A DNA stretch of 64,000 nucleotides from positions 78,308-142,307 of the forward strand of contig PUQB01000482.1 of NCBI GenBank assembly GCA_003024785.1, read 5' to 3'. The position numbers were made by a program, and so were the translations under genes. This document shows positions 3,861-35,559 of the stretch, piece after piece (position 1 is the stretch's first letter; every line of letters begins with the position of its first letter). Below the pieces are notes generated by a model that was given only the letters and a program-made list of their open reading frames with translations, made no database searches and was not told where the DNA came from. This DNA comes from Selaginella tamariscina (lineage: Eukaryota; Streptophyta; Lycopodiopsida; Selaginellales; Selaginellaceae).

Positions 3861-3871
3861 GCACCTCCTCC

Positions 3872-6138: not shown

Positions 6139-6700
6139 AGAATCCCTATCGAAAAAAACTTCTCCAACTTCGCATACAGGCCATGCTCGCGAAGCCGCTG
6201 TAGAACCAATCGTACATGCTTGTCATGTGCCGCCTGGTCCTTGGAGAAAATCAAAATGTCGTCGAGGTAGATCACCACAAACTGGTCCAAGAAGTCACGA
6301 AAGATGTCGTTCACCATGTGTTGGAACACGGCTGGGGCATTGGTAAGGCCGAAAGGCATCACCGTGTACTCGAAGTGTCCATACCTTGTACGAAAGGCAG
6401 TCTTCCACTCATCGCCGGACGAATCCGTACAAGGTTGTAGGCCCCTCGTAAGTCGATCTTCGTGAACACCTTTGCTCCTCGCAGCCGATCGAGAAGTTCC
6501 GGGATCAATGGCAACGGGTACCGATTCCGAATGGTGACTTGATTCAAACCCCTGTAGTCCACAACCAAACGTAAACTCCCATCCTTCTTCTTGACAAAGA
6601 AGATAGGCGCTCCTGCAGGGGACTTTGAGTGACGAATGAAGCCGGATGCCAAGTTGTCCTCGATGTACTGACGAAGAACCTCCAACTCTGTGGGTGACAA
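6078..6700 (-). pseudogene. reverse transcriptase, copy 2
   Basis: Two overlapping frames hold a nearly complete RT palm. ORF 6359-6700 has [34 protein letters not shown] and [18 protein letters not shown] 6078-6362 has [19 protein letters not shown] and the catalytic [15 protein letters not shown] single-base shift near 6415 (a missing base against copy 1 at the CGCC(T)GG site) separates them. The YLDD active site and the primer-grip region are intact. Confidence 0.88.
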
Positions 6701-6719
6701 TGCATAAATCGGTCCGAAC

Positions 6720-8824: not shown

Positions 8825-8914
8825 GATCTTAGAAAGAAAAAAGGAGAAAAGAAGGAAAAGAATCAAGGAAAAAAAGTAGCTGGAAAACGAGCTATGAAGC
8901 AGTTACTATCAAAC

Positions 8915-9471
8915 TGTCAAGCCACGATCCAGGAACCAGGAAGAGAGCAGGATTCCAAGAACAGGAAGGCTTGACTCAGGAACAGGACCGAGAGCAGGAA
9001 CAGGAACAGGACAGGAATCAGGAGCAGACAGGACAGGATAGGATCCGAGCAGACAGGAAGGCAGGAAGGATCCAGGAACAAGACAGGAACAGCAGGATCC
9101 GGAGCAAGACAGGAGCAGGAGGCAAAGAGAAGACAAGAACAAGACAAGACAAGAACAAGAATAATCGTAGAATGACTGGTGTTGATAGTAACTGATTGTA
9201 CAACAATTAGGTCGGAGCTTTTATGCTCACAACTCCAAGCTAATCTAGTCATGAGTCTAATCTAGTCATGAGCTATGAGAGCTAAGAATAGTGTCCCTTA
9301 TCCTCTAGGCATATCCTGTAGCATATCCTATAGGCATATCCTATAGGAATATCCTAGGTATATCCTGTAGCATATCCTGTAACCCGTATCCTGTATCCGA
9401 AATCCTGCATCCTGTATCCTGTATCCGGAATCCTGTATCCTGTATCCTGTATCCTGTATCGGGTTGTGACA
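8915..9471 (-). repeat. 5' LTR of chromovirus copy 2
   Basis: A 557-bp LTR, minus orientation, with TG...CA ends (TGTCACAACC start, GGCTTGACA end on the minus strand). It aligns along its length with 3314-3860. U3 is packed with ATCCTGTA-type repeats, and the R/U5 side has CAGGA-rich repeats on the plus strand (8930-9120). Confidence 0.88.
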
Positions 9472-9655: not shown

Positions 9656-12630
9656 CTAAGGTGGTGAATGGTCCCTTAGCTAAGTTGGAAAACGAGGAGG
9701 TGCAGTCCAAATAGAAGCATTCTAATTGGACCATTGCAAGTCCGCTCCAAGTATTCTCTTCCTTGACAACAGTTCTACTTGTGATCCCAACAACAAACAA
9801 TAACAAGCTCTTTCTTCGTTGGATTACTCTTTTAATATCTAACGGTATTCAAGTTAACATAGCATCTTTACTTGATAATGGTGCAACTGGTAACTTGATT
9901 GACTGCCTTTTTGTTTAACAACATAATCTGAAGCTTCATCTATGTTCCAATCCGATTAAGTTGTCGATTACAGATGGAAGACCAATGACATCTGGCAATA
10001 TTACTAAAGATAAGATGCTTCTCACAATCACCCTTGGTAATATCTTGTGCTTGGTCTCCTTTAACGTCACTTCAATTTCTAACACTCTTGTTATTCTTCG
10101 TCTTCCTTGGTTTGAGACCCTCAATCCATAAATTGATTGGACAATTTGTACCTTAGTTGTTTCTACTCTGACTTCTATTTGTCTCCAACTTCTGGCTATA
10201 CCTCTGCAACTCTAACTCTTGGCAGTACCTCTGCAACTCTAACTCTTGACTGCATTTTAGAACCTTTGGTTCCTAGCAACACTTCTGCATCTCTGTCTAT
10301 GTCTCTGGCTCCCACTCCCACTCGATTTTGACTCCAACCTAGACTCTGACTTTGATTCTGACTTCATCTCTATCTTTAGCTTCGACCAAGACTCCAACCC
10401 AGCAACGTTTTGCATCTCCAACGACATCAGCTTTGACTTCGACGACATCCTCGATTCATATCTTGACCATTTCATTGGCAAAATTTATTTGTGTTGGCTG
10501 TACTCAACTCGACACGATTTTTGCTATGATGGTGACTCCATCTTCGACATTTACTCCTAGTTTTTGACCGTTTGCATACCATGAGTTTATAAATGTATTC
10601 GACAAGGTCCAAGCCAAGTCGTTTTCCTATACATCGTATGTATGACTGTCCAATTGATACTATTGAAGATAAGACACCTCCGTTTGGCCTTATCTATGGT
10701 CTTCTCCACTCGAGCTTGAAGCTTTATGAGAATACATCAACGACAACCTGGCTACCGATTTCATTCGTCATTTTAAGTCTTCAATTGATGCCCTTATCTT
10801 CTCGTCAAGAAAAAGGATGGCTCTTTCCTATTGATATTCGACTATTGTAAGTTAAACAAAATCACTATCTGTAATTGATATCTTCTACCTCTTATCTCTG
10901 AGATTTTTGAGCATCTTCATGGGGCTTATTACTTTATAAAGATCAACCTTCGAGGTGCCTATAACTTGCTCCATATTCTCCCTAGTGACAAATGAAAGAC
11001 TGCTTTCCATACACGCTATGGGCATTTTGAGTACACACTAATGCCTTTTGGGTTAATCACTGCCCCTGCGGTTTTCTAACATATGGCCAACGACATTTTT
11101 TGTGACTTTCTTAACTAGTTTGTGATTATCTACTTGGATAACATCCTTATTTTTTAAAGACGGAGGAGGAACATCATAAACAAGTCCATTATGTTCTAGA
11201 AAGACTTTGGCAACATGGTCTTTACACTAAGTTGGAGAAGTGTCAGTTTCATCAAGAACAAGTCAAGTTTTTATACGTGGTGTCACACATTGGAATCTCC
11301 ATGGCATGGCCAAGGTGCACATAGTTCTGAGTGGGAAATGTCAAAGTCATCTTGAGACATCTAGTGTTTCCTCGGCTTTGCCAATATCTACAAGCGCTTC
11401 ATCAAGGACTTCTCCAACATTCTGCTTCCATTAAATCAGCTGACCAAGAAGGAAGTTTTGTTCAAGTGGTTTTATGGAGGCTGAGAATGTGTCTATCACA
11501 CTCAAGTTTGCTTTTACCTTAGCTCCAATCTTACTTCACCCCGACCTGACAAAACCCTTTGTGATGGAGACTGATGCATCTAACTTTGCTTTGGGTGGTA
11601 TTTTTTTATTAGTATGGCTCTGATAACAATCTACACCACGTAGCATTCCAGTCGCACAAGTTCATGAATGTGGAGATCAACTATGAGATTCATGAAAAGG
11701 AACTTCTAGCTATTGTGAATTGCTTTCAAGAGTGGCAAAGGTTTCTTGAAGGCTCCCTGCATAAGGTAACCGTCTTCACTAATCACTGAAACTTGGTTTA
11801 CTTCTCTCAGGCTCAAGTTCTAAATCGACGTCAAGCTTGTTGGACCCATCAAATCCTCTTTTGGTTCGACTTCAAGATCAAGTATTGACCCGGCACTTAA
11901 TAAGTTCAATTTGACGCACTTTCTCGATGAGCATATTTGGCGCCACATGCTAGTGACGTCGAGTTTCACCAACAAAAGCAAGTGGTACTTAGTCCTAAAC
12001 ACCTCCAAGCACTTGCCATTTGTTCATGTTGCACCCTTTGACTTCAGCCTTCTTGACACTATCTGCTCTAAACTCATCTTTGATCCCTGGCTTAGGATAT
12101 TTTGAGTTACCTCGTAGGTAACACTCCATTCATTTCACGACTTGAGTACAATTTATTTAATTTGTCAACAGTCTGCTTCTCCGTAATGACTTTGTTTATG
12201 TTCCATTGGATGACACTTGACTTCAAGTACTACAGTATCATCATGACACTCCGCTTGCTGGTCACTTTTGTGTTACAAAAATAGTAGAACTAATCAATTG
12301 TAATTATTGGTGGCCCGAGTACGTCAGTTGGTGGAAGAGTTTATTTGTACCTGTGATATTTGTGCTCACTCTAAAATTCCTCGTCATCGCTCATATGATC
12401 TCCTCTAACCACTTCCAACTCCAATAACACCTTGGTCTTGCATCTTGATGGACTTTATGATTAATTTTCCGCCAACTCAAGGATTTGACACTATTCTCAT
12501 TAATTTGTGGACTCACTTCCTACTGTGTACAAAGACTATCTTTAGTGAAAAGGACAACCGACATATTTAAGAAAGATATTTTTTTACTACATGGACTCTC
12601 CGACAACATTGTTAGTGATCACACAAGTTT
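9656..12630 (+). mobile_element. Old, decayed Ty3/gypsy element, 5' part (protease to integrase)
   Basis: Plus-strand remnant of a chromovirus related to the left-hand ones but heavily mutated. It can be read through stops and shifts. Protease-like LLDNGATGNLIDC is near 9870. The RT approach is near 10670. FIKINLRGAYNLLHI is near 10935 and the MPFGLITAPAVF / [10 protein letters not shown] blocks at 11040-11150, with the YLDD active site changed to [20 protein letters not shown] is near 11365 and an RNase H METDASNFALGGIF is near 11565. The integrase zinc finger and core start run from 12240 up to HGLSDNIVSDHTS near 12625. The reading stops there, and what should follow is found at 29945. Gag is missing, replaced by the inserted left-hand elements. 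Confidence 0.82.
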
Positions 12631-12671: not shown

Positions 12672-13230
12672 GTTTAAAATTAAACTTAAACTATATGCAA
12701 GACTTTAGTTTAATTACTAATTTTATTATCATACTATTATTAGTATGTTAATAATACTTTATTTATAGAATTAATATTCTATGTGTAATATATATTATTC
12801 CCAAAATGTATAAACATTTGCAAACATTATTTACTGGTGTATAGTGTTTTAAACATTTAGTATTTATGTACATAAATATTTATGTATATTTATTGTGTTT
12901 GAGTTTTAACATTAGTTTAAACTCTCTATATACTTTTACATATGCTTTGTAAAAGTATTTTTAATAAAAATTAAAAATATTTATATGTCAATTTTATATC
13001 TTTAAAGTTTACCTTTAACTTCAAGTTTTGACTCATGCTTTAATTAGTTTAACACATTTTATAAATGGTAAACATAAGATCTACTACTTGTAGATAACAA
13101 TGGAATATCCCAAATTTTCTTAATGGAATATTCTTATCTAGCAATGGAAAACTTTATTTACCATATATTTGCATAATTATATGAGTTATTATTTAAACTT
13201 ATGTTTTAAACCACATTTTTCAACAACCGT
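12672..13230 (+). repeat. Direct repeat D, left copy
   Basis: AT-rich block that matches, in the same orientation, 27292-27375 plus 28793 to about 29400. Shared landmarks in order are AAAATTAAACTTAAACT, ATCATACTATTAT, AGTATGTTAATAA, a TTTAAAC-rich stretch, and GGTAAACGTAAGATYTA-like words. Divergence is high, so the repeats are old. They could be LTRs of a large element, or a duplicated flank. The copy also preserves the uninterrupted target sequence of the MULE in the right copy (12744-12754). Confidence 0.6.
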
Positions 13231-13274
13231 TTCTATTTTACTTAGAAAACCTGGTTTGGTTGTATTATTGCTTT

Positions 13275-13345
13275 TTTGTTTAAAATAAACATATATATGC
13301 ACGTTGTAACTTAAAGTGGGCATGATACATGAAAATGAAAATATA
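13275..13345 (+). repeat. Left member of a short inverted match bounding the gene-bearing segment
   Basis: The stretch containing GCACGTTGTAACTTAAAG and GTGGGCATG matches the reverse complement of 27232-27301 (GCAAGTTGTAACTAAAA, TGGGCATG) over about 50 bases at roughly 80 percent by eye. Weaker AT-rich similarity continues inward. It may be the degraded terminal inverted repeat of the 14-kb segment. I could not find a target-site duplication. Confidence 0.45.
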
Positions 13346-13640
13346 AAATAAATTACTAATTAATACTTAAGTTTTAATTATTAATTAATCATTTAATTAA
13401 TATGTAATTAAGCCTTAAATATTAATTAATTAATTAATTAATCCTTCAATAACCTTACTTAGTTAGGAATATTCCTAAAATATCTTAGAATATTCATATT
13501 ATTCTAAAAATAGTTTACAATAATTAAGAAATACTATCAAACATAATTAACAAATGAAATCATTTCCTTATCAATATGTTAATTTATTTATAAATACTTT
13601 CTTCCTAACCATATAGAGAAATCTCCTCATTTTGTCTAAA
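13346..13640. other. AT-rich spacer without a recognised gene
   Basis: Dominated by TTAATTAA runs and a GGAATATTCC palindrome near 13467. No coding potential is seen. Confidence 0.6.
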
Positions 13641-14721
13641 TCATCTCTCCGGATTAATCAAATCATTTTGGTCAATATCTCGATATTGTTGCCACCACCT
13701 AACACTCTCACGAATGCAATTGGGAGTTGCCATCCTTGTTAATACATAAGATGTAATAAGACCAGGTTTCATAAAGGCCTCATAAAGAATGACGTTCCTT
13801 AAGAATAATATTATAAAGCGCCCGGTTGCTATCCTTCATTTTAAAAAAAATTCAAAATCACGAGAAAGAAAAGCTTCAAGAAATGTTTGATACGGTGGAT
13901 ACTGCTCACAAAAGTTTTCGAGATTCTTCTTTCTGAGGCACGTATCCAAGTAATTCACAGATCATTCATAATATCAGTATCAGAATATGATCGAAAGTGA
14001 TTGGATGAATACAAACAATGTTTGGTTGAGCATAGCCTTCTGAGGAGAGTCGTCTACCACTAAGTATGTGCATTCTTCATTATTCTTAAGCGACTGATCT
14101 CCCCATGAAGCCCAATTAATCTTTCATTCTTGAAGAAGTATGGTTCTTGAAGAAGTATGGCTTGCTTTCCTTTTTTATATTGTGAAATTCAAGAGGTTTA
14201 TACATATTCACTGGTCAAAAATCCAATCTTTACGAATTACCTCTTCTGCAACACTACAATGTTTCTTAAGCAAATTCAATAGCGGTCTTAAGTTATGAAT
14301 TTGCATGCATGACTAAATCCCCACAAGCGCACCCATCTCCTTAAGTTTTTGAAAGAGACGATCCAACCCTAGACAAAAATAATATCATATCAAAATTTAC
14401 CATGAACAAAGAATGAAATCTTCCTTGTTTGATTTCTTTTTTTCTATCCTCGGGCCTTTGTCAATGAAGCAGAACATCATTGACATCCAACAACACAATA
14501 TGGCCATGAGTAACATGGGATAGCGTTGCCTCTTGAATACTTTGCAAATCACTTGTTTGCTCCTTTTCACATTTATCCGTTGACACTATCTCGTTGCCTA
14601 TCCCTTTATCATTTAATTGTACATCATCCTTACAAGATTCAGATATTGCATGCGCTGAAGAAATTGATTTCGAAACTGAAGCCAATAAAAATGATGATGA
14701 AAAAACTGAAGTGGCCCCCAT
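13641..14721 (-). pseudogene. FCP1/NLI-type HAD phosphatase-like gene (decayed)
   Basis: Minus-strand reading. The N-terminus is a 86-residue ORF (14461-14721) beginning MGATSVFSSSF, with an acidic linker and then VLLDVNDVLLH, which is the HAD motif I region; plant FCP1-like proteins have LLDLNGVLL or similar here. Motif I is altered: the second Asp is replaced by Asn (DVNDV), as in many plant members of this group. Downstream in another frame, near 14040-14090, is TYLVVDDSPQKAMLNQT, the motif III DDSP signature. The C-terminus, near 13641-13790, reads KPGLITSYVLTRMA...WWQQYRDIDQ and ends at TGA. Several frame changes and stops separate these parts, though some could be introns. FCP1-type phosphatases act on Ser/Thr phosphosites in nuclear proteins. 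It lies 320 bp downstream of the ParB/methylase-like gene on the same strand. Confidence 0.6.
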
Positions 14722-15044
14722 GGTAATGATGTTTTAAGCTGCATTATTATCCATTTTCTGCATGAACTCTGTCATTCTGACATGTGGCACAAGAAATTTT
14801 CGCCAAACCCCTCTCTTACCTCATGCCAATGCTAAAAATCCATGTTCTCAATTGTTTCATTACATCTACAAAATGATAATTAGCTGACCTTAAAATTATC
14901 AAGGTATATTATTTACCTTGTTAATGTGTGACCCATGTTTGAACTAAAAGCTTCATTAATCCTTGAGAATTTATTTTCTGTACAAATATAAACGAAATAT
15001 ACAAAAATGCCTTATGTTACACTCATTTACAACTATTCGTCACT
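14722..15044. other. Spacer between the HAD-like and ParB/methylase-like genes
   Basis: AT-rich, no ORF with recognisable features. It would contain the promoter of the HAD-like gene and the 3' end of the upstream gene. Confidence 0.5.
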
Positions 15045-18000
15045 CTAAGAACTCATTAACAATTCTTCTTCGCTATTACCTTCTGAGTGAGGCGAAGAAG
15101 GTCTAAGCCGCTTGTGAGATGGTTCATGATCTTCTGTATCTTTTGTTCATGTTTCCATGGGTAATGGAGTGTGTGAATGTTCTGTACTCCTCGAGATAAC
15201 TTTCGGTCTAATATCTGATTGAAGTTCGTCATTAGACTCCGATATTGAACCAGATTCGTCTTCAGAACTATCGCACTTATCGGAGGGGAACTTTCTCAAA
15301 TACTTCTGTATGCGTTTGTTGGGGTAGTCAATTGAGAACCTATCTATCCACTTGTTCAGGTCCTCAACCATGATCTTATCCTTTTCAACGGCAAATACAC
15401 ATGTATCCCGAAGGTAACACTCCTTCAAGACGGACCCCTAGTGCAGTAGTCAAAAACCCACGCATCACTGTGAGGACCCCTGATCAAGTTGACGATGCTC
15501 CGTGCCGCTTGACTTGTGATGTTTGGATAATGTACATTGCCGAATACGTCACTCTCAGCTATCGGTGTATCGGATGGAGGTTCAGGGCTATTGGAGTGCA
15601 AACAGATGCCTGTCCAGTCATTTGGAAGTTTGAAACTGTTTGGCGCATTCCTAACAACCAAGTGAACAACCGAATCAATGCACTTCGGATCAGCATCATT
15701 CATATAAAATCCTGTCCAACAATGTTTATTCCTTCTTGGCAAAGGAGAAGGCAAAGGTATCGGTGACATGAGCAAGAATCAAGAAATAAATACTGAAAAC
15801 GTAGATATCAGTCAAGAGTGCAAGTATGAATTCAATAATAAAATACCTTCTTTGTACATACTTGCACGGCTAAGTTTCTCCACCAAATCCTCTAGTGTCC
15901 TGTCTGTCGAAGGATTTTTTGACACCCGCCGATCCATCACGAACAATTGAAACGGTTTCCTACAAGCAGTGATGGTACCCCATAAAGTCTCCGAATCAAC
16001 AACAAACATCTGTAGGGCTTGTCGTGATTCGTAGCATCCTCCTTTATAAGGTTCAACTCGGTTCTCCGCTGCTGAAGGACTGCCATAAGAGAAGGCGTCA
16101 TCGCAATGTTCTCCTTTTTGGCGTTGGCGTGCAATAGATTCTTGCCCAGATCTTCCGATTGATTCACCCATTCGACAAGCATATCATCATTTGTCACATG
16201 CAAATATTTGCTGACCTCTTCGTATGTTGAAGCCGATCCAACCCAGTTTGTGGCAGTGTATTCCCAACCACTCCTTGAAGTGCCTGACCGTCTTCAACTC
16301 CATTGCCTTGAGATGAAAAGGAGAGGTGGGCTGCTGTTGTTAATTGTAATTTGCCATCAATCACCAAATCAGCCAAGACTTCCATCTCCTCCATCGTTGT
16401 TCCATTTAAAGGCTTCAACCATGTGAGCTTGAAATCGTTGTCTACATCCTTTATAGATTGAACAGACTTAGCCTTCGGCGTCTTACTGGGTTTCTTTGCA
16501 GACTTCTCTGAGGGCTCCACTTCACTTGTCTGCTTCTTCTTCAGTGTTCCTTTTGCAAAGGATTCCATAATCCCCAACCATTTCGCAAAGATCCTATCCT
16601 CGGGACAAGAAATCAACATCATAAAAAGGATGTTTCCTTCCCGCCCACCTGGGCAAAATCAACTGCTACAATTTCTCTGAGAAAAAGACAGATTAATATA
16701 TACCGGCGAGATAAATCCCGCCCAAACAATTTGCTTACCCGGTAGTCCGCAGATTGTGTATTCCCTGCGGTAGCTCTTTGTGGTCGCTGAAGAGATTCCC
16801 ACACGGCTCGCGTGTGTTTGAACTTCTCCCATATTTTGCTGTTGTAGTGGTTGGTGTCTGCAGCGTCCCATTCCGCCGATAACTTATGGTACTGCTCGAT
16901 TGTGAGATTCGGCTTCGCTAAAAACGCCGATCTTTTCGTCAGCTTCTCACGGGTATGCTCGGAAAGTTTTGTTGCCATCGTTCCTTTGTTGTGTTCGTCG
17001 AGAAGTCGTTGGGCTGCCGTTATTGTGTGCTGGCCACTAATGATGTAGTACTTGATGATTTTCTATTCTCCGTCTGAACCTTTCATTTGTTCGGTGTTGT
17101 GATCCACACTTTGTCAGCGCCTTTGTTTCTCTCGTAGTATGCGCACAAAACAGCATTATGTGGAACGGTAAGAATTGTCGTCCTTCATCTTCTCCATGAG
17201 CTCAGCTACACGTTCCTGATTGAGTGGCCTGTAATTGAAGTTTGGGTTGACGCTGCAATACTTAACCCTACACTCGTAAATCCTATCATCCAACATCATT
17301 TCCTTGTGGCTTATTGCAGCATGGGACGCCACAGGTGCAGCTGACAAAACGACTGATTTTCTTCTACGATCCGAATCAACATGTGTGATCCCCGATTGAT
17401 GCTGTTCTAATGTTCTCGGCACACTCTTCCAGCTCCCGAAATTTGCTAAGCAAATTGAACGTGATCTGTAAAGAACCTGAGACCAAGCCACCCTCTCAAT
17501 CTCCTTATGATGTCGCTGTGTTCTTCTTCAATGTGAAGAGGGACGATTGCTCCACTTGTGATTTTCTGTATTGTGAAGCAATATCTCCTGAAATACACCT
17601 ACTCGATGAGTCTGAAGATCTTCGAAGTAGACATCCAGTTGGATCCCCTCCATAGATGGGCTTTCGTTGAGTTGAAGAAGAACTCCACGGTCAACATCAT
17701 TAGTGAACACGTGAACGTCATTATCCACAAGTCGACAAAACCACCCGAAATTAATGTTGTAACTGGCGACCTCTGGATCCGAGAACGTGACATTGGATGG
17801 AACAAGGCATATGTGTCGAGCATCGTTCAATCTGGGTTCACAGCATGCTTTCGGATGCTTGACTAGCACACCCACTTTCCATTGTTTTGCTTGTCCATGC
17901 GATGTGACAGAGGTTAGTTTGACAGCAACCATGGTTGTTCCAATGCGCTTCCCGTTTAGTTTGAAATATGGCCAAGTTGATTCCAGAATCCCCCTGCCCA

Positions 18001-18171
18001 TCTCTTCTCCTGCTCTCGTCTTTAATGTCACCTCAATTCCACATCTGAATACAAAAATGATTAGTTCAAGCACATATCCGAGTATAACAGATTTTATTTT
18101 AATTCTTACCCAGAATTTGACGACGACTCCATACTAATGACTCGATCTCCTTGTTTAATTAAATCGTCCTT
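15045..18171 (-). pseudogene. ParB-like / DNA-methyltransferase-like fusion gene, spliced, frameshifted
   Basis: Long minus-strand gene. A first visible exon, 18110-18171, follows a TTTTGCAG acceptor, and a 64-bp GT-AG intron leads to exon 18044 downward. The first domain (17528-18044) contains GRGILESTWPYFKLNGKRIG, resembling a small beta domain of plant transposon proteins. Next (16975-17330) come FNYRPLNQERVAELMEKM and IISGQHTITAAQRLL, spaced as in ParB N-terminal domains (GQHxxxAA). A helical part follows (EQYHKLSAEWDAADTNHYN; RAVWESLQRPQRATAGN), then a Lys-rich linker. Near the C-terminus VVHLVVRNAP...ARSIVNLIRG...DAWVFDYCT resembles methyltransferase motifs X and I, followed by FAVEKDKIMVEDLNKWI like motif II. 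The glycines after VFDYCT are lost (TRGPS then stop). A basic/acidic tail ends at TAG (15045). Frame changes occur near 17500, 17095, 16190, 15800 and 15430. The family calls are inference from motifs only. Confidence 0.5.
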
Positions 18172-18464
18172 CTGCAAAATAATACACTATGAATACAAAT
18201 CATAAAAAACGCACACACACTTGTATAAACCCGAATATACAAAAATAATACACAGAGAGAAGTGGACGGAATTAACTGTCCAAAGCTCACTTTGTGCTAG
18301 TGCAAAAGAAAGATAACATTTCGTTTTAGAACCACCACAAATGTGAGCTCTGGACAGTTTTACATAATTCCTAGCTTTTACTCGAAATATTATGATAAGA
18401 TGATAAAAGTAAATAAAATGAGATATGCAACTTATATATACTAATACACATATATATTCACATG
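18172..18464. promoter_or_regulatory. Region between the first visible exon and the left palindrome array
   Basis: About 290 bases of AT-rich sequence upstream of exon 18110-18171. It may be intron or promoter. There is a local inverted word pair, AGCTCACTTTGTGCTAG near 18285 and ACAAATGTGAGCT near 18340. Confidence 0.35.
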
Positions 18465-19500
18465 GAAGGTGCGGCGGGATTAATCTCGCCACCCCTTCAA
18501 TGCCTCCTGAAAGAGTGGGCGGGATTAATCTCGCCACCTTTCTGGAGGCCTTGAACGGGAGTGCGGAATTAATCTTGCCACCCTTCTCGGTCTCAGAGAG
18601 AACTGGGCAGGATTTATTTTGCACACCCCTTCAGTGACTCCAGAAAGGGGCGGGATTAATCTCGCCCACCATGTAAGGGATGGTTAAATGAATTTCGCCA
18701 CCCTTCCCAGTCTCTCCATTGGTATGTTGTAAACCTTCTACGTTCAGACAAAACGTTTGGGATTGGTCCGACTCACCAATGGAGAAAAAAGGAAGGGTGG
18801 CGGGATTCATCCTCCAACAGGCATTGAAGGCTCGGCGGGATTAATCCCGCCACTCGGCCCTAGGCGCGGGATTAATCCCGCGGACGCCAATCCCTCGCGG
18901 AATCGGGCGGGATTAATCCGCCGCCTAGGCCCTTCAGGCAGGCCTTTGGCGGCGGGATAAATCCCGCCCGATTCCGCGCAGGGCATGCGTACGGGGGATT
19001 AATCCCGCCCCCAGGCCCTTCACTGGGCCTTAGTCGGGCGGGATTAATCCCTCCGACGCCAATGCCCTGTGCGAATCGGCAGGATTAATCCCGCCCTAGG
19101 CCCTTAGGCAGCCTTTGGCGGCGGGATAAATCCCACCTGATTCCGCGCAAGGCATGCTTAGCGGCGGGATTAATCCCGTCGGACGCCAATGCCCTATGCA
19201 GAATCGGCGGGATTAATCCCGCCGCTAGGCCCTTCAGGCAGGCCAATGGCGGCGGGATAAATCCCGCCCGATTCCGCGCAGGGCATGCGTAGGCGGCGGG
19301 ATTAATCCCACCGCCCAGGCCCTTCACTCGGGCCCTGTGCGGAGGGATTAATCCCGCCGCTCATTTGGCTAACCGAATAACTACCTGAAATGGCGACAGG
19401 ATTAATCCCGTCGCTCATGAGGGTAACGAATGAGCGGCGGGATTAATCCCGCCGCTACACACGTCTCACATATAGCGGCGAGATTAATCCCGTCGCTACA
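18465..19500. repeat. Left array of GGCGGGATTAATCCCGCC palindromes
   Basis: About 23 copies or close variants of an 18-bp perfect dyad, spaced mostly 40-60 bp apart, in a GC-rich island within AT-rich DNA. Intact copies are seen near 18832, 19205 and 19437. Between 18900 and 19320 the spacers also repeat as a larger unit (AGGCCCTTCAGGCAGGCC, GATTCCGCGCAGGGCATGC, GACGCCAATGCCCT). The array starts less than 300 bp upstream of the first visible exon of the minus-strand gene. ORFs running through it, rich in GLIPP and GGINPA, are by-products of the repeat. Confidence 0.9.
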
Positions 19501-19650
19501 CACACACACACATATATATATGTATATGTGTGTGTAGGAGAGTGCGTGTGTGTGCGAGAGATAAATAAATAAATAAAATTATACAGATACTAGTACACAT
19601 AATATATGTATGTATACATAGGTATATATATATATATATATATTATAATA

Positions 19651-19694
<44 letters not shown>

Positions 19695-19760
19695 ATATCG
19701 GTGTATGTGTGTGTGAAACAAATAAAATCATACAGATAAACAAACACACACACACACATA

Positions 19761-19817
<57 letters not shown>

Positions 19818-20090
19818 AGGAGTGCGTGTGTGCGAGAAAGAGATAAATAAATAGAATATATATATATAATATATATATATATGTGTGTGGTGTTGTGTGT
19901 GTGTGTGTGTGTGTGTGTATACGAGTGTGCGTGTGTGTGAGAGATAGAGATCTACAGAGAAGAGAGAGAGAGAAGGAGATATATATATATATATATATTT
20001 GTGTGTGTATATGTATACGAGTGTGCGTGTGTGTGCGAGAGATAGAGATCTATAGAGAAGAGAGAGAGAGAAGGATATATATATATATAC

Positions 20091-20142
<52 letters not shown>

Positions 20143-20620
20143 GTGTGTATATATGTATACGAGTGTGCGTGTGTGTGCGAGAGATAGAGATCTAAATTAT
20201 ATTATTAAGATACACACACATATAAATATATAAATAAATAAACTCAGAGGAGTGTGCGTGTGAGAGAGAGAGAGAGAGAGATCTCACCTGTGTGAGAGAG
20301 AGAAGGAGATTTCACTGCCGCCGCCGCTGCCTTACAAACTCTAGGAATATACTTAAACCCTAAAAGGAATAGAATATATATTAACCCTAATCGAATATTC
20401 CTTTTAAGAAATACTTAAACCCTAAAAAGAATAAACTATAGATTCGCCCTAAACGAATATTATTTCATTATATTATCAGCGTGTGCGTGGGTGTATCACA
20501 TACACCCAAGAATAAATATCATGCAAGGGTTTAACACGTGTGTGTCCATGAGAGTGTTAAAGTTTCACGTGCAGTGATACATATATACACACATAGTATT
20601 ATAGTACATATTAATATTAG
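19501..20620. repeat. Microsatellite core: (CA/TG)n, (TA)n, (GA)n
   Basis: Long runs of GT, TA, CA and GA dinucleotides alternate, with a recurrent composite word GTGTGCGTGTGTGTGCGAGAGATAGAGATCTA near 19925, 20020 and 20160. From 20340 to 20450 there are two related copies of an AAACCCTAAAAGGAATA-like unit. There is no gene. The 116-residue ORF here is a low-complexity artefact. Confidence 0.9.
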
Positions 20621-20634
20621 AGAGACAGAGTACA

Positions 20635-21145
20635 GGATCGTGTATGGTGTGTATGTATGAGAGAAGAGTGATAATACATATTATGGATCATGCATGGTGA
20701 GTATGTTTGAAAGAAGAGAGACAGTACATATTTACATGGATCATGCATGGTGTGTATGTATGAGAGAAGAGAAAGAGTGTTAACAAATTAAATTCATACA
20801 CAATGTCATTGCATATATTAGTACACACATATACATACCACATGTATACACACAGACATACATACATATTACATGTGTAAATTCAATGTGTTACATAGGG
20901 TTAGGGTTTAGGGTTTAGGGTTAGGATGGATCATGCATGGTGTTTATGTATGAGAGGAGTGAGTATACACAGATATACATTATACATATTACATAATATT
21001 GTAACATCAATACATATTATGGATCATGCATGGTGTGTATGTATAAGAGAAGAGACAGGCTACATATTATGGATCATAATCATGCATGGTGTGTATGTAT
21101 GAGAGAAGGGATTATGCATAGTGACACTGTGTATGTATGAGAGAA
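20635..21145 (+). repeat. Dispersed tandem unit GGATCATGCATGGTGTGTAT with GAGAGAAGAG
   Basis: About seven copies of a unit of roughly 60 bp core length, at about 20636, 20690, 20745, 20927, 21023, 21072 and 21110, with variable inserts of (CA)n and ATACATATTA words. A longer 150-bp block (AGAGTGTTAACAAAT to GTAAATTCAATGTGTTACAT) is also repeated, at 20775-20895 and 21150-21265. Confidence 0.75.
20897..20925 (+). repeat. Interstitial telomere-like repeat (TTTAGGG-type)
   Basis: Four successive GGGTTTA/GGGTTA units, the plant telomere motif with one-base variation, embedded in the microsatellite region. Confidence 0.8.
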
Positions 21146-21469
21146 GAGATAGAGTGTTAACAAATGAAAACCGTACACATTGCATATATTAGTACACATA
21201 TATACATACACACGTGTATACACACAAACATACATATATATTACATGTGTAAATTCAATGTGTTACATATACACAGATTGAATACATATAAATCATACAT
21301 GCGTTGAACATGATGTTTTTCAATAAAAGCAACATATAATTTCTCAAGTTTGGTTTAGGGCAATGTGCATGTGTGTGCATATGTGTCTTTGTAAGTGCTT
21401 CTAATGCGTGTGCACGTGTATATATAAATTTATAATCGTGTTTATATATGTGTGCAAAACAAACATCGA

Positions 21470-22220
21470 ATAATTAAGAAAATAATATTTATAACACACT
21501 ATGAACATATTTAAATTATATATAATAATATATGATTTTATTTAATATATAGCCAATATAGTTTTAATAATATATATTAATTTAATATTGATAATAAGGT
21601 TTAACATTAGAATATTCTTGAAATAATAAGAAATTAATTGAGAAAATCCCATTAATATATACGAATAATTACTGAGATAATTAATAATAAGACTAATTTA
21701 ATTATAATAATCAGTTTAATATTGGAATATTCTTCGAATATTAAGAAAATAATAAAGAATATCACATTAATATAAAGAAGATTAATTACTCAAGTAATTA
21801 AGAAAATGAAATTAATATACACACTATGAACATATTTTAAATTATACATAATAATACATTTTTATCTAATATATAGTCATATATAGTTTAATAAATATAT
21901 ATTAATTTAATATTGATAATAAGGTTTAACATAGGAATATTCTTGAAATAATAACAAATTAATTGATATTAATATATACAAATGTAGAATAATTACTGAG
22001 ATAATTAAGAATATGACTAATTTAATTATGATAATCAGGTTTAATATTGGAATATTCTTTGAATATTAAGAAAAATAATAAAGAATATCCCATTAATATT
22101 AGGAAATGTAAATTAATTACTCGAGTAATTAAGAAAATAATAATAATAAACAGACTATGAATTATTTTAAATGATACATAATAATATATCAATTTATTTA
22201 TTGTATTAGTGTATATATAT
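21470..22220 (+). repeat. AT-rich tandem repeat of about 327 bp
   Basis: The landmark ACTATGAACATATTT...AAATTATA occurs at about 21496 and 21823 and in a diverged form at 22151, giving a period near 327 bp. Each unit also carries AATATTGATAATAAGGTTTAACAT and ATTACTGAGATAATTAA-like words. No gene is seen. Confidence 0.75.
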
Positions 22221-22571
22221 AAATATATAAACTCAATATTATATACTTGAATATTAAGAATGTAGAACAATTACAAAATTTTGTAATATTAAACAGTTTG
22301 AAGCACTGAATAACATTAAATGCAATTTTAAAACACTCATTAGAATTGAAGAGTATTATGTCAGACTGTCGATTATTGTTTCAACTCATCTTAAATTTTC
22401 TTTTCTGTTATTTTAAAAATTTCGAATTTTTGACATAAGTATTATCAGTCTGACATGTAAATTTGAAAATACATTTAATTTTCCACTCAAATTCAGATCT
22501 GGTTCTTTCTCCGGCAAGGGTTTCTTTATTTCTTTATTTTTCATTCTTCAGATTTTCTTTTTTCTTCTTTA

Positions 22572-22651
22572 GTGATCAGCTCAGGAGCGACATTAAATTG
22601 GGTGCGCTATTGTTTATAGGAAAGCACGGCGCCTTCAGTGCTGTTTACAAG
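22572..22651 (+). CDS. Candidate small exon, kinase glycine-loop-like
   Basis: A pyrimidine tract and TTCTTTAG acceptor precede 22572, and a GTAAGT donor follows 22651. The frame between reads KLGALLFIGKHGAFSAVYK, which resembles the glycine-rich loop of a protein kinase (GxGxFxxVY). No further kinase exon is evident nearby. It may instead be the first coding exon of the DUF7869-type gene, with the palindrome array in the intron. Only the splice-like boundaries and this short stretch support it. Confidence 0.3.
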
Positions 22652-22814
22652 TAAGTATTATAAACAAATTTAGATATATTATAAAGATTCACTCTCTTAC
22701 ATTCTCTCTTAAATTTTAGAATTTAGGGATTTAGGAATGCATTAGGATTACAATATATTTTGTTAGGGATTTTATCCCGTTTAAATATACCTTTAATTTA
22801 ATATTCTCGTTAGC

Positions 22815-23535
22815 CGAGGCGGCGGGATTAATCCGGTCATTTTTTTTTGCTTCTTTGAAGAGGTGGCGGGATTAATCCGCCACCATCTCTTTCATAGCTA
22901 TGGCAGAATTAGTTCGGGCAATGCTTCTCCGCCTCTTAAAAAGAGTGCGAGATTAATCCCGTCGATAATTCTCTCAACTAATAATGATTTAACTTGAATT
23001 TATTAGAAAGAGTTGTCGACGGGATTAAATCTCGCCAATCATTTTAGGAGGCAGAGAGTGGGGTGGCGGGATTAATCTCGCAACTACTTCCCTGTTTTAA
23101 ATATTTGTGGGCAGGATTCATCCTGAATCTCTTTGAAATCATAATTTCGAGAGAGTTGTAGGGGGATTAATCCCGCTACTTATTCCCCGTCGTCAGAGTT
23201 GTGGGCGGATTAATCCCGCTGCCTATTCTCCATCGTCAATGTTGTGGGCGGGATTAATCCCGCCCCTCTTCCTCGTTGGAGGAATTTGCGGCGAGATTAA
23301 TCTCGCCGACTCTCATAGACGAGGAAGATCCGGTGGTGGGATTAATCCCACCGGTACTTCCTCGTCGAAGGGAGCCCGCGGCGAGATTAATCCCGCCGCT
23401 ATTTCCTCGTCGGAAGGAGACCGCAGCGGGATTAATCCCGCCGACTCTCTCCGATGGAGTAGAGTCGACGACGAGATTAATCCCGCCGACTCACTCTGAA
23501 GGGTAGAGTCTGCGGCGGGATTAATCCGCCCATCA
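22815..23535. repeat. Right array of GGCGGGATTAATCCCGCC palindromes
   Basis: About 16 copies or variants of the palindrome, spaced about 35-65 bp, ending 130 bp before the plus-strand gene. Some copies carry matched changes in both half-sites: GGCGAGATTAATCTCGCC near 23290 and GGTGGGATTAATCCCACC near 23335. Spacers carry CTCGTCGGA/GAGGAAG words unlike those of the left array. Confidence 0.9.
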
Positions 23536-23666
23536 GTTATATAATAAAGCATGAGATATTATCTTTATACATAATATATATTATTACACATGCATATAAG
23601 CAACCGCAGTTATGATTTCTTAGAATATTGCATAAACAGATATCATAAATAAACACAATTATTTAT

Positions 23667-26600
23667 GTGCAGGGACAATATATAATATTGGAGATAAGTA
23701 TGTCTTCTTCGAAAAACGAGATAGTTGGCACTGGAACTGTGGAAGTTCGAATGATAATGCATCATGTCACAATATTGCCAAGGATCTTGTGTGTACGTAT
23801 GGGTGAACACCATTTTAAGCATGTTGAGGTTCCTGGAATGGAATTTGAGGAGGGTTCTCCTGTATTGTGGAATTTGGATGAAGTCAAGGCTGACACAGAA
23901 TATACAGAGTCACAAACAAACAGTAGCACGAGTTTTCCAGATGATGGCTTGCCTGCTGTGATGGATGAGGTGATTCTCTTTCTTCATGAGATTGAGGTTG
24001 GGAGAGGCATCATCACAGCTATAAATCCAATGGAAGCAGTGTCAGAAGAGAAACTAGGGTCCGACTTCGTGGGTGTAGTTGTGACAGAGGTTTCACCTAA
24101 TGGCACTTTGCATCCTGGATCCCTCGTGAGGTGGCGAACATCTGAATTAAGACGGCAAGATGGTTCAACATATTCTGGGTTGGATTTCAATAATAACAAC
24201 CCGGAAGAACAATCATATTTGAAGAGGTTCCTTGCATTGGTCCTATTATAAGAAAAAGGCGATTCATGGGTTGCAGATCTTCCCCTGCATGTTTCAGCAA
24301 GAGGGTGAAGATGGATCCTACATCTTCCGAAAGTGTTACGAGCATTTCCACGATTGACTGCTGCAAGAAGAAGTGTTGTCAGATGGCAGACCGGAATGAA
24401 ATTACCCAATGTAGACATGTCTTTCGTACGCTCACCCAAAAGCAAAGGCATGAGTTTGTATATGCTGCACTAACTGGGTGTATTGATGGAATGGCTTCGG
24501 ACACAGGTTATCAGAGTACATCCATGGTATTTAATAAGGTGGCCATCTGCTTCAAAGCTTGGTACAGTATATACGGGATCCCAAAGACCACGTTCTACCG
24601 TCGGAGGGATGAGTGGTTAGATGGAGCGCGAACCTCAGTACATGGGAACACTGGCTTGGTCAAAACCCGCTTTCACATTATGCAGCCATAGAGATACTCA
24701 AGGCTTTTGTGGAAGCAAATGCAGACAGGATGCCTCACAAATGCCAACCACAAATGCAGGGGTCAGGGAAAATCTCAAGGTTTTGCCTTCGATCTACACT
24801 CAATTGAAGCTGTGTGAACATGTGAACAAGTGCCTCAGCTTGATGGGGGCAAGCAATCTGCACTGGTACCTTCAACAACATATGGAATACTCATTTTAAG
24901 GATGTGGAGATTGCAAAACACTCTAGCTTTTCCAAGTGTGACACTTGTACATCATTGAAGGCTGCAGAGGCTTGTGCAAAAACCTTGGTGGAGATCATGC
25001 CATTCAAAAGAAGATGGAGGCCCACATGATTGCACAACAAACTTGTCGGTCTCAGTACTATGCACACCGCATGCTTTCTTGTCACGCCCATCAGAGTACC
25101 TGTGCTTGATCCATGACAAGATGGATCATTCAAAGACCAGCATTCCAAAGCTCGTTGCAACACCAAAGTGCCTTGGAAATGTTATGAAACTTCCGATTTC
25201 ATTGACAGGTGTGCTAACACATGGACACGGTTGTGAATCATATGGACACTTTTCACTTCCACATTGGCTAGCGACTCCAATTTCACTATTGGGTCGTTGG
25301 CCATGTGTTTCAGAAACCTTGAAGCCCACTCACAACAAGTCCTATCAGTGATCTCAAAGTGAAGAAACAACACCTTCAACCTTTACATAATGCTCTCATG
25401 AACACGTCTGCACTTGAGGCTACTTGGGAATATGAGAGGCATTGTCAGCAACCTGCACAAAAAACAGATGGCCTGTTGAGAGTTCAGGTTCAATGGAGGG
25501 ATCTAGCTCAAATAGTGTACATGTGTCCTCAACATCAAATAAGCTTCTCGTCATTTGCTTTTACAGATGGATAATTGTGCAGGCGAGAACAAAAATAGTA
25601 AATCATTTTACTTAAGGGTTTCTCAAGCTCATACTTACTTTTATTTTCTAGATATGTGCTAGCATACTTGTCAATGCTTGTTGCCAAAGGTGTGTTTGAA
25701 ACAATCACGCTCAGTTTTCTTATGGTTGGTCACACTCATGAAGATATTGATGCGTTCTTTAGCAAGGTCTCCAACTCTACAAAAAGGACAAGTGCACTTA
25801 CCTTACCGCATATGATGAATCTTTTTGAAAATTGCATCTCCAAAAAAAGTTGTGCTTTGCTTGTGACTGAGGTGCCAGACTTCAAAAAATTTCTCAAGGA
25901 GTATATAAAAGAGGGGAGTGATTCTTTAGTTGGTCACCTTGCGCCGCTACAATTCTTTTTCTCCATACGAGATGGTATACCTATTATGCAGTACAAGTTA
26001 CGGCCATCAGAGCAAGAGTGGTTACCGAAAGAGGGGTTAATGCTCTTCAAAAGTGGAGAGAATGGAAAGCCACTTCTCCCAGAAGGACAACCAAACCCTA
26101 TTCCATTGAGTGCCCAGCTCAAGGAACAAGAGGTTATTATTGATGGCATCAAAAAATATGTGGCATGGGTTCAAAAATCGATGCCAAAGAATTCTGATAA
26201 GGCAACTGGTTACTCAAACTATATAAGCATGTGGTTGACTATTGGGAGACTGTTGTTCGAGAGTTGGAAGGGCCTACTGTCACAAGTACAGAATTGCAAC
26301 ACCCTTTTTGGCCTAAAACAAGGTGGCGAGAGGAGATTGAAATGACATCACTGAGCACAGACGACATAGAAGCCAGTAGTATGTGGAAGTGCAAACCCCA
26401 CACTTTGTTGGACAAAGGAACCAAAAACCTAAAGCATACTTTGATTACTGCCAGGATCTTCAAAAACTAATGATGGTTCTCATTACTCCAATGCGTCATA
26501 TAATCAGCCTATTTATGGATCAAATTATCGACACACCTGAAGTAATCACAAAAAATAGTATTGTTAAGGTTGCATGGTTCAAACCACAAAAAAGGCGACA

Positions 26601-26721
26601 CGAGAAGGAGAGCGAAAGATATAATGGATGCCTAGAGAAAACATGGTCTCCCAATCAAAAAGACCCAGCATGTTTTATAAATGTTAAATCCATTCGATAT
26701 GGGTGGATGTCAAGAAGTTGA
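23667..26721 (+). pseudogene. DUF7869-type transposase-like gene, spliced and frameshifted
   Basis: The first large exon follows a TTATGTGCAG acceptor (23667). Its ORF to 24251 contains IEVGRGIITAINPMEAVSEE...VVVTEV, a small domain that parallels GRGIL...VAVKLTSV of the divergent minus-strand gene. ORF 24266-24691 has CCKKKCC and FRTLTQKQRHEFVYAALTG, then ICFKAWYSIYGIPKTTFYRR, the usual N-terminal half of this family. Around 24900-25350, broken, come KCDTCTSLKAA, MDHSKTSIPKL and LPISLTGVLTHGHGCE. From 25565 comes MDNCAGENKN, a short intron whose donor seems damaged, then VLAYLSMLVAKGVFETITL and the hallmark FLMVGHTHEDIDAFFSKVS (25656-26345). The C-terminal part lies in two more frames to 26721. 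The DUF7869 family is widespread in repetitive copies; a transposase role is inferred, not shown. Confidence 0.65.
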
Positions 26722-27231
26722 TAAAGTTACGATTAACAAAACTGCAAGGGAATGTATGTTTTTTGAAGCTTAAAGCAATTACAAAATTATAAAATATCAT
26801 ATATTTAATATTCATAATTATTATAAACTCTTTAATAATAGTACCAAATTGTTTACTTAACTATATAAATTTAAAAAAATATGGAAGATTGACTATATTA
26901 TTATAGGATTTTGTATATTATATATATTATTACTACAAATTTTTAATTAATAATGTTATATTTAAATATTAATATTTTAATAACAACATCAATATTTATA
27001 TAATGTACCTCTTATGCTCTTCCTTAATTGTTATATTAGGCAATATATTATATAATTTAATACCTTCTACTTTTATAATGTTATTAATTTTTGTTCAATG
27101 AATGCTATAATTTATTAAAGGGTCGAATACAAAATAGAATATTCTAAAGAATATTCTGTTTTCAAACATATATTCTAAAAATATTCTTTTAATATTAGAA
27201 AATGCTAATTAAATAGCTAAAATTGCTAATT
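26722..27231. other. AT-rich spacer downstream of the DUF7869-type gene
   Basis: No gene. AATATTCT words recur near 27140-27190, echoing those at 13465-13510 in inverted order and extending the weak inverted similarity of the two ends. Confidence 0.5.
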
Positions 27232-27301
27232 ATTAGGAAATGGGACTATAGCCATGCCCATTTTAGTTACAACTTGCATATATTTATCTTTAAAAATTAA
27301 A
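27232..27301 (-). repeat. Right member of the inverted match (candidate terminal repeat)
   Basis: Contains CATGCCCATTTTAGTTACAACTTGC on the plus strand in pieces (CATGCCCA, TTAGTTACAACTTGC), the reverse complement of the landmark at 13300-13325. Confidence 0.45.
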
Positions 27302-27675
27302 CTTAAACTTTTATTAAGGTCATAAGTTTAATTAATATTTTAATTATTATCATACTATTATCAGTATGTTAATAAGGGAAATGTTATAATGATCTGATTA
27401 TTTGCTAAAATGACCTAACATGTCACTTAACCCAACACTCACCGTTAATAAAGGTGTAAGATTAGCTGGGGGATACCCCCAATACTTGGCACTGCTAACC
27501 AAATAAATAATTAACATGTGAGCACGTTGAAAGCCTTCCCATGGCCACCTTTCGGAATATCCTTCTCACCCATCATCTCCGCACCCCTCCATCCCCGGCA
27601 AACACCCTCTCATTCCCGATTCTTGTCTACAAACTCTGAGCAAAAAACGATCAAGTGCATGTTACCACATTCATC

Positions 27676-27989
27676 ATGGACGACAGTATCCACCAGCTTT
27701 GACTTGCCAAAGGGACGAGAACATGCTCCAAGGCAAACATTGGAGATCTGGACTTACACCGCTCCCTCCCTTCCTTGACGCCGACACAAGAAGTTGCCAT
27801 TGAAGCTGTGCGCCAATATGCGCTTGCCAATGGATTTGTGTCTGTCATCAGGCGTTCGCAATCTTAGAGCATTAGGGAGCAAGAGCCTACGATCCGGTGG
27901 CACATCTTGCGATGTGCACAAGGCGGAGCATGCACCCCCAAGTCCCTCGCATATGGCAAAAAGGAACTCAGAGAGTGGGATGTGGATAT
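27676..27989 (+). pseudogene. FAR1/MULE-transposase N-terminal fragment
   Basis: Starting at the ATG of MDDSIHQL the plus frame, after one stop, reads PTQEVAIEAVRQYALANGFV then SVIRRSQS and a stop. This is the pattern of the FAR1-type DNA-binding domain of MULE transposases (an amphipathic helix, then a GF-x-V-x-RRS strand). In another frame a basic, Cys-containing part (LRCAQGGACTPKSLAYGKKE) follows and is split by the solo LTR at 27990. It is a relic of the autonomous ancestor. Confidence 0.5.
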
Positions 27990-28521
27990 TGTCAAGCCAC
28001 GATCCAGAAACTAGGAAGAGAACAGGATTCCAAGAACAAAAAAGGCTTGACTAAGGAACAGGACCGAGAGCAGGACATGAGCTATGAACAAGACAGGAAC
28101 AGGACAGGATCCAGGAACAAGAAGGAACATGACGGAATTCGGAAGCAAGACAGGAATAGGACAGGATCCAGGAGCGAGACAGGAGCAGGACAGGATTCAA
28201 GAGCGAGACAAGGAGAAAACAAGAAGCAAGGGGCAAGACAAGAATAAGACAAGACAAGATTGATCGTAGTAAGACTGGTGTTGATAGTAACTGATTGTAC
28301 AATAAATAGGTCGGAGCTTTTATGCTCATAACTTCAAGAGCTAATCTAGGCATGAGTGCTACAAGTGGTTGCATACATGTAAAAGTGGCTGCATGCATGC
28401 AAGGGCTAAGATGAATCCACATATCCCTTATCCTTTAGGCATATCCTGTGGCATATCCTGTAGGAATATCCTGTAATCAATCCTGTATTCGGAAACCTGT
28501 ATCCTGTATCGGGTCGTGACA
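27990..28521 (-). repeat. Solo LTR of the left-hand chromovirus family
   Basis: A 532-bp LTR in the same orientation as the two LTRs at 3314 and 8915, with TGTCA...TGACA ends. It is flanked by a perfect 5-bp target duplication, GATAT (27985-27989 and 28522-28526). No internal region is present, so the element was reduced by LTR-LTR recombination. It lies within the MULE. Confidence 0.92.
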
Positions 28522-29400
28522 GATATAAGGTGACGCTTAAGCTCAACAACATCAATGGAAGCTAGATCTTAGTTGCACCAATGCGACGCAAGCATGTTAT
28601 TAGAATGGCCCAAGAAATATTTAGCTTTCATGCTCACTGGCCATCCACCACAACTTTCTAATGGTTATAATGATTCTTTATTTATATATATAAGGAGAGG
28701 TGTACTCACTACGTAGCAAAAATCCACCACATGACTAATAGTTGCTTACGTGTTAGGTCATTTAGCAAATCACGAGGTCATTATAACATTTCTATGTTAA
28801 TAATTATTTTTACATCATAGACAAAATATTCTATGCATATTATATGTTTCGCTCAAAAGTATTTTTTCACTTAGGTTGAGGAAAACTATTGGTAGATATA
28901 TCAATGTTTAAACATTTAGCTTTTACATATACATATGCTATTTTATGTATATTTACTTTGTTGTGTTTAAACCATATTGAAAAAGTTGAGTTTTTAGAGT
29001 TTAACATATGTTTAAACACTCCATGTATATTTTTTGCAATAAGTATTTCCTAGTAATAATTGACAATATTTAAATGTCAATTTTTTCATTGAAGTTTTAT
29101 TAAGTTTTAACTCCAAGTTTGAAACTCATGCTATTTCATTTTAGTTTAACATATACGGTAAATGGTAAACGTAAGATTTATGTCTCGTATCAACTACTTA
29201 GCACCAACTTAATCATAAGATGGTGTACTGATGTAAGCATGCTTACGTTTACTAAACACTGTGTTTAATCTTTACATTTCGTGTATAATACCATGATTAT
29301 TAAGCTGTTTTGTGTAATATGGTTTAACCATTTTTTATGATATTTTCAAGCGCGTGATATTTCAACAAGCTTTATCCATGGTTTAACATGCTCACTGTTA

Positions 29401-29944
29401 AGAACGCTGTTTTCCATGGGTTTTGAACATTGACATACGTGTATATTCCTTATATCAAAGTCACAAAAATATTTCTCTAGGCGTATATCAACTTGTAGAG
29501 ACGTTATTTCCATAAACCACATACCATATCCAAATATATGGTGTACAGTTTAAACTCTCAAAAGACTTCTATTATAAGTCCTTTTTGGGTATACCACACA
29601 CAAAAATATAGCTTAAATATTTAAAACGTGAATACTCATTATTCACATTTTTATGGTTTTTCTCAGTAGACTAGAAATTACCAATTGTAATATTATTTGC
29701 AGGTTCTACCAGCCGTAATATTATTTATTGGTTTTAAGTGTTGGCCTGTTAAGAGAAATCGGCTATTAAAACCACAAAGTGACATTCTTATTTTTTTTTA
29801 AATAAGAGTCACTTTCTACACCACCACCCCTACTATGCCTGTCTCATATTCATTGACTCAGAAATAGTGCCTTGCATTCCTTCTGCTAGCAAGCTGTAAT
29901 ATGCAGCTACACACAAAGAATATATATCAGGCCAATATCCATTT
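29401..29944. other. AT-rich end of the insertion, with a hairpin
   Basis: No gene. AAAGTGACATTCTTA at 29776-29790 pairs with TAAGAGTCACTTT at 29803-29815 around a T-rich loop. The boundary with the resumed gypsy integrase is near 29945 but has no clear repeat. Confidence 0.5.
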
Positions 29945-30875
29945 CATTTCTAAGAGCAATTTATCGTCAAGTTTTGCCAATGACTTATTGAGTTACTAAA
30001 GATCAAGAGGTCATTATCTTTGAGTTATCATCAAAAATCTGATGGTCAATCGAAATGCAACTATCTAGACCTCGAACATATTTATAATGTTTCATCAATT
30101 ACCAATAGGATGATTAGTTACTGCTACTACCCTTAACTGGATTCTCATACAACAACTCCAAGCATGCATCAATTGGTATGTCACTTTTTTATGCCTTGAC
30201 ATGTCACCATCCACAATGGAGTTTTAATTCAGTAAATCTGTTTACCAAAGATCAATTTGATCGTCTTCAGTATGTCTAAGCTATGCTTCATTAACATCTT
30301 CTGTAGGCACATGAACATTAAAAGACAATTACTGATCAATATTGTACAAACAGTCCGGTTTATTAGGTTGGTGAGCAGGTCTGGCTTTTTTGATGTAACA
30401 TCAAGACTACATAGCCTTATGAAAAGTTTGACTATCAACAACTCAGTCCATTTCCGATGGCATCTCGTATCAATGATGTGGCTTATTCGTTGGACCCTTC
30501 TTCAATGTACATCCATTCGGTATTCTATGTTTCTCTTTTGAGTTGTACGCTCCATGGTCAAAACTTTACCACTTCCATCTTTGGTTACAATTAATAATGA
30601 TTTGAATATGAAGTCAACAAATCTTGGACTTCAAGTTTCTCTTTATCACCGACTTTATTACTTGGTCAATTGGGTTGGTTACCTTCCAAGTGAACATTCT
30701 TGGAAACTTACAACAAATCTGCAATATGCTCGTAACACCATTAACAAGTTTTATCTCAAACAACCCGGATCTCAAAGAAGGGGGTGGTGTGATGATTTGA
30801 TTATGTCACAAGGATATGATATTGATAAGAATATATATAATGATATGAATAAAGATATAGATAAGGGTAATTTAA
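29945..30875 (+). mobile_element. Old Ty3/gypsy element, 3' part (integrase end and chromodomain)
   Basis: Continues the integrase lost at 12630. In-frame pieces FISKSNLSSSF, then LSSKSDGQSKCN (an altered YHPQTDGQ-type motif) near 30030, appear with stops. ORF 30554-30892 ends in a chromodomain: YYLVNWVGYLPSEHSWKLTT, followed by NLQYARNTINKFY. The downstream part is cut by the MITE at 30876. Taken with 9656-12630 it accounts for one element, with the order and orientation preserved. Confidence 0.75.
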
Positions 30876-35545: not shown

Positions 35546-35559
35546 AGGAGGGTCCTCGT

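Follow-up and report, generated by a model that had tools for sequence, protein, structure and literature searches.

A fossil, probably of a large DNA transposon, with a DUF7869 gene and paired palindrome arrays in Selaginella tamariscina

The 64,000-nucleotide stretch of Selaginella tamariscina DNA analyzed here (the window) contains a unit of about 14 kb in which two genes, A on the minus strand and B on the plus strand, point outward from a centre rich in AT and simple repeats. Both genes are interrupted by stop codons and frame changes, and may also contain introns. Each has an array of the same 18-bp palindrome upstream, an arrangement that an earlier, sequence-only reading of this DNA had described and that our scans bore out. 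The features of the region are listed below, with coordinates given in the window.

12673-13083, plus strand: flanking direct repeat, left copy, matched in three stretches
13279-13324, plus strand: left inverted-terminus-like sequence, a local inverted match to 27253-27294
15147-18133, minus strand: gene A, broken, about 900 aa in 14 pieces, with an N-terminal domain in common with B by sequence comparison
16705-16722, no strand: lone palindrome site within gene A, from the 18-mer scan
18473-19494, no strand: palindrome array upstream of gene A, 21 sites
22821-23531, no strand: palindrome array upstream of gene B, 14 sites
23700-26721, plus strand: gene B, broken, about 1000 aa in 13 pieces, with DUF7869 and two copies of the N-terminal domain
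25109-25126, plus strand: IHDKMD, with the putative first catalytic Asp (D561 of P0003)
25567-25596, plus strand: MDNCAGENKN, with the putative second catalytic Asp (D742 of P0003)
25728-25751, plus strand: GHTHEDID, with the putative third catalytic Asp (D782 or D784 of P0003)
27253-27294, minus strand: right inverted-terminus-like sequence, a local inverted match to 13279-13324
27290-27375, plus strand: flanking direct repeat, right copy, first part (83%)
27378-28792, no strand: nested 1.4-kb element, not part of the unit, with inverted termini of about 46 bp and an adjoining 11-bp direct repeat, TATGTTAATAA
28907-29180, plus strand: flanking direct repeat, right copy, remaining parts, split off by the nested element

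An uninterrupted ORF of gene B matches DUF7869 (PF25273) with an E value of 2.5e-27 (96.1 bits versus a Pfam cutoff of 26), confirming the earlier recognition of a DUF7869 gene bearing GHTHEDID. A Pfam scan of the composite B reading returned DUF7869 alone, and Transposase_21 was not matched. We found 43 homologues of B, including sequences from Physcomitrium patens, Riccia sorocarpa, Mya arenaria, Saccostrea cucullata and Antedon mediterranea, and the closest named relatives are bryophytes. In the predicted structure, the DUF7869 catalytic domain adopts an RNase H-like fold with three acidic residues placed in beta1, after beta4 and in the following helix. These positions are conserved among the homologues (D561 in 42 of 42 readable rows; D742, D782 and D784 in 43 of 43), and the corresponding motifs are present in the window copy. 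Compared with retroviral integrases, Mos1, TnsB and IstA, which have the DDE/D RNase H fold, DUF7869 differs in that its third acid lies within GHTHEDID, and the P0003 model has an insertion of about 100 residues ahead of the fourth strand together with Tudor-like and BAH-like extra domains. The DUF7869 profile searched against PDB sequences gave a best E value of 0.23, Foldseek on viral models gave no match at E values up to 0.001, and none of the 22 and 65 pattern matches to B in viral contigs was confirmed. Taken by family, modelled fold and triad, the identification of B as a DDE/D-type transposase is well supported at the level of sequence and model, and so is the original suggestion that B moves the element.

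To compare A with the family, an HMM was built from 22 copies of the N-terminal domain in DUF7869 homologues, leaving A and B out. The N-terminal part of A scored 17.7 bits against it, B scored 28.3 and the best of 200 shuffles scored 6.3. Direct comparison of A with B gave an E value of 0.003 at GRGI...VxV. At the sequence level, the two proteins have an N-terminal domain in common. In the remainder of A, ParB-like (YYIISGQHTITAA) and methylase-like motifs (FDYCT / GSVLKECYL, split by a frame change) can be read by eye. The ParB candidate was rejected: it had no match in Pfam, PHROGs or NCBIfam, and an HMM of eight plasmid ParBs, chosen out of 40 listed hits for spread and so as to avoid pathogens, scored no better than 300 shuffles, in a test limited by the broken reading. 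Against PDB sequences, the ParB stretch returned eight rows, all of them ribosomal S15a/uS8 chains (best E value, 0.075); there was no phage match, and of the four plasmid records matched, none was a ParB. The methylase stretch had no match in PDB sequences, Pfam, PHROGs or NCBIfam, and its match to a CbiT methyltransferase among plasmids was weak (E value of 0.5, obtained with two letters supplied at the motif junction of the query). A motif-I-like stretch was seen by eye, and a DPPY-like motif was not. The label ParB/methylase-like was not confirmed for A, in which the methylase part is left as a candidate, and the further claim that A joins a ParB to a DNA methylase and modifies the element is unsupported by the profile, PDB-sequence, phage, plasmid and protein searches. 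Beyond the left end of A, a decayed minus-strand frame at 13660-14740 looks by eye like a NIF/HAD phosphatase (LLDVNDVLL, LVVDDSPQKAMLN) and is perhaps a captured host gene. The NIF match there had an E value of 0.014 when letters were supplied at the stops and at one junction; with X at the stops there was no NIF match, and a HAD-like match had 0.11, so that support from profiles is weak.

The 18-bp palindrome GGCGGGATTAATCCCGCC occurs at 36 sites in the element and at none in the other 50 kb of the window at up to five mismatches, and its 16-bp core gave 35 matches versus 0.05 expected at up to three mismatches. A single exact 18-mer in a viral contig, L001, served as a control only. Of the 29 spacings below 60 bp, 25 measure 41 to 46 bp, and parts of the left array are repeated in direct and inverted orientation. 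The right array stops a few bases short of a TATA-like box, TATATAATAAAG, ahead of gene B. The sites show weak covariation (P = 0.033), and G>A or C>T changes make up 34 of the 65 substitutions. Elsewhere in the window, the palindromes AAATGTACA..TGTACATTT at 58157-58176 and 61003-61022, 2.8 kb apart, form the sole pair of like palindromes outside the element at the detection threshold used.

A scan of bacterial and archaeal contigs with the DUF7869 alignment matched 84 stretches, four of which (L002 to L005) were confirmed as DUF7869 relatives. These contigs are filed under cyanobacterial and Bacteroidetes bins and are apparently misbinned eukaryotic DNA. L002 has an open DUF7869 frame of 963 residues and palindromes at 34-54, 111-137 and 486-512, the last of which ends four bases ahead of TATAAA. 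Weaker copies occur on either side: a motif derived from L002 itself found 12 sites when up to seven mismatches were allowed, and none of 20 shuffles gave more than 2. In L003, an open frame of 915 residues is preceded by three exact 51-bp units bearing a 31-bp palindrome; in L005, two exact 89-bp units with palindromes follow the gene. Both arrays are located at contig ends. In L005, four sites stand out at up to one mismatch, while the nine sites of a looser scan fall within the shuffle range (3 to 14). No palindrome repeats were found in L004, where the gene is at the contig end. With one detector and threshold, repeated palindromes were present in three of four DUF7869 contigs versus 1 of 23 control pieces (Fisher P = 0.005), the controls being 9 pieces from the window (one positive) and 14 viral pieces (none positive) rather than matched contigs of eukaryotes. 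L007, which is shorter than 2 kb, and leftover ends were excluded. The palindrome sequences differ from contig to contig. The domain that A and B appear to share, the TATA-like boxes and the palindromes of these other contigs lend indirect support to the earlier proposal of palindromes as binding or control sites shared by the two proteins.

Several alternative explanations were considered. B could be the transposase of a one-gene DUF7869 transposon, with A, N-terminal domain included, an unrelated or captured gene and the pairing an accident of this copy. The database that yielded 43 homologues of B gave none for A, which speaks most strongly against a regular partnership of A with B, and in viral contigs the one stretch that fitted the A pattern was not confirmed. 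L002 (4.3 kb) and L003 (3.7 kb) likewise combine a DUF7869 frame and palindromes with no second ORF above 160 aa, but both are short contigs that may be cut. The N-terminal domain that A seems to have in common with B and the identical 18-bp palindrome array at its 5' end argue against a chance pairing, and we regard the one-gene explanation as unlikely, though deserving of some weight. A second alternative is that the palindromes are host homeodomain-type sites serving as enhancers instead of sites of an element protein. The half-sites of the palindrome read TAATCC, which may be homeodomain-type sites, and every position of the core GATTAATC is conserved in at least 89% of the 36 sites, which were themselves chosen by similarity. 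However, other DUF7869 contigs have different palindromes, which element-specific binding fits better, and host enhancers seem to us an improbable account. That the arrays are satellite-like tandem repeats without function, as their 43- to 45-bp tandem units, partly amplified into 86-, 131- and 169-bp blocks, might suggest, is very doubtful, given that one palindrome makes up two arrays that lie apart and differ in their spacers, each directly before a gene, and that unrelated palindromes repeat beside other DUF7869 genes.

The candidate ends of the unit carry an imperfect inverted match (13279-13324 and 27253-27294) that scored 51, whereas none of 500 Markov shuffles scored above 43; the weak terminal match reported earlier is thus real but modest. 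The left terminus reads TTTAAAATAAAC. The best flush target duplication at the ends was 7 bp, equalled or exceeded in 45 of 200 null draws. Direct repeats are present on both sides, as previously described, and pair in three separate stretches (12673-12754 with 27290-27375, 83%; 12848-12892 with 28907-28955, 82%; 12905-13083 with 29000-29180, 73%), and they are therefore not flush with both termini. The order within the interruption of the gypsy gene is one direct repeat, the unit bounded by the inverted match and the second repeat copy, split by the nested element. The inverted termini of the nested element scored 60 versus a maximum of 26 in 300 shuffles, and it contains a stretch resembling the gypsy-rich region at 3314-3654 and 8915-9345. 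We considered that the unit might instead be bounded by its own long, LTR-like direct repeats (12673-13083 and 27290-29180), with the inverted match a side feature. The 73 to 83% identity of the repeats and the start of the right repeat at the right terminus would fit this, as would the start of the left repeat (12670), which resembles the tip of the inverted terminus (scores of 29 and 30, where the highest of 300 shuffles reached 30 and 24). Against it, 13092-13278 and 29182-29500 show no similarity above shuffles, the unit is predicted to encode a DDE/D-type enzyme, and reverse transcriptase was not noticed in the unit. LTR-like boundaries are, in our judgment, quite unlikely, and the left end of the unit is either 13279 or about 12670.

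The sequence-only reading placed the unit inside an old gypsy integrase gene, and gypsy parts do flank it on both sides. Matches to reverse transcriptase and RNase H at 10987-11981 and to integrase and chromodomain at 29954-30781 lie on one strand, the plus strand, which shows that the gene is interrupted over more than the proposed 13275-27301. An integrase-like stretch read by eye on the left ends near 12640, and the interruption is therefore placed at about 12.64 to 29.95 kb. That the insertion is in the integrase part is suggested by a weak match on the right (E value of 0.14, beside a strong chromodomain match at 1.1e-18) and by the reading by eye on the left, where a Pfam scan of the ORF returned no families. 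The rest of the window also contains duplicated parts of gypsy-type retrotransposons on the minus strand at 1-9400 (reverse transcriptase match at 6078-6743; chromodomain-like end by eye), another Ty3/gypsy retrotransposon on the plus strand at 34574-38597 (gag, protease, RNase H and integrase matches) and, at 55593-56339, a NOGCT domain (E value of 4e-24) from a host NOG1-like gene or pseudogene. The gypsy retrotransposons, the NOG1-type domain and the bryophyte relatives of the DUF7869 gene point to a plant as the probable host.

The closest comparison is with CACTA elements (En/Spm, Tam1 and soybean Tgmt*; CMC group), which are likewise large plant DNA elements with a DDE-type transposase. 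Weak, sub-threshold matches to a TNP1-type domain (PF03017) occur in the B ORF (E value of 0.046) and in its homologue P0009 (6.6e-4), with still weaker ones in P0006 and P0022. According to PMC2613891, CACTA repeat motifs diverge between elements, those of Tgmt* can form 2 and 12 palindromes, the repeats are considered to be bound by an element-encoded DNA-binding protein, and TNPA of En/Spm, which binds subterminal repeats, regulates its own element. The transposase family of B, however, is DUF7869 and not Transposase_21, and the arrays of the unit are internal and promoter-proximal. CACTA elements have CACTA termini and a 3-bp target duplication; at 13279, the candidate left end, no CACTA end is seen. 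According to PMC12730594, CMC members carry C(2)C between the second acidic residue and the third, whereas this motif occurs in 0 of 43 B homologues, in which the spacing is only 41 to 42 residues; DUF7869 does not show the CMC pattern of C(2)C and H(3-4)H between the second D and the last E. Because of its transposase family and the result of this motif comparison, we do not class the element as CACTA.

In summary, we think that the unit is probably the fossil of a large DNA transposon of the cut-and-paste type, with a plant as its probable host, in which B was the transposase, A an accessory protein and the arrays the sites of their shared domain. B would cut at the termini through an RNase H-fold DDE/D center (D561-D742-D782/784 in P0003), flanked by predicted N-terminal SH3/Tudor-like domains and a BAH-like C terminus, and A would be an accessory protein built on the N-terminal domain common with B. 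This domain may bind the palindromes before both promoters in an element-specific manner, and the arrays would then set the transcription of A and B. By analogy with TNPA/TNP1 and the subterminal repeats in CACTA, the arrays could perhaps also gather the A and B proteins on the element.

No function has been assigned to the eukaryotic family DUF7869 (a Pfam domain of unknown function), which was seen here in bryophytes, molluscs and one echinoderm. The terms DUF7869, PF25273, GHTHEDID and GHTHEDVD were absent from the literature searched, mainly open-access papers and without Repbase, and a description elsewhere is possible; this absence is consistent with the earlier description of the element as undescribed. 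We propose for DUF7869 a transposase fold, palindrome arrays and a partner gene. More tentatively, and with less confidence than for the element itself, we suggest that DUF7869 may represent an unrecognised superfamily of eukaryotic DDE/D DNA transposons of plants and animals, with arrays of element-specific long palindromes at promoters that are read by a Tudor/SH3-type domain shared by transposase and accessory protein, a self-regulating code that changes between elements. Reading DUF7869 as a DDE/D transposase with a palindrome code could allow repeats that are now unannotated to be classified. If true, DUF7869 would join CACTA as a second example of a binding domain that seems to change in step with its repeated sites.
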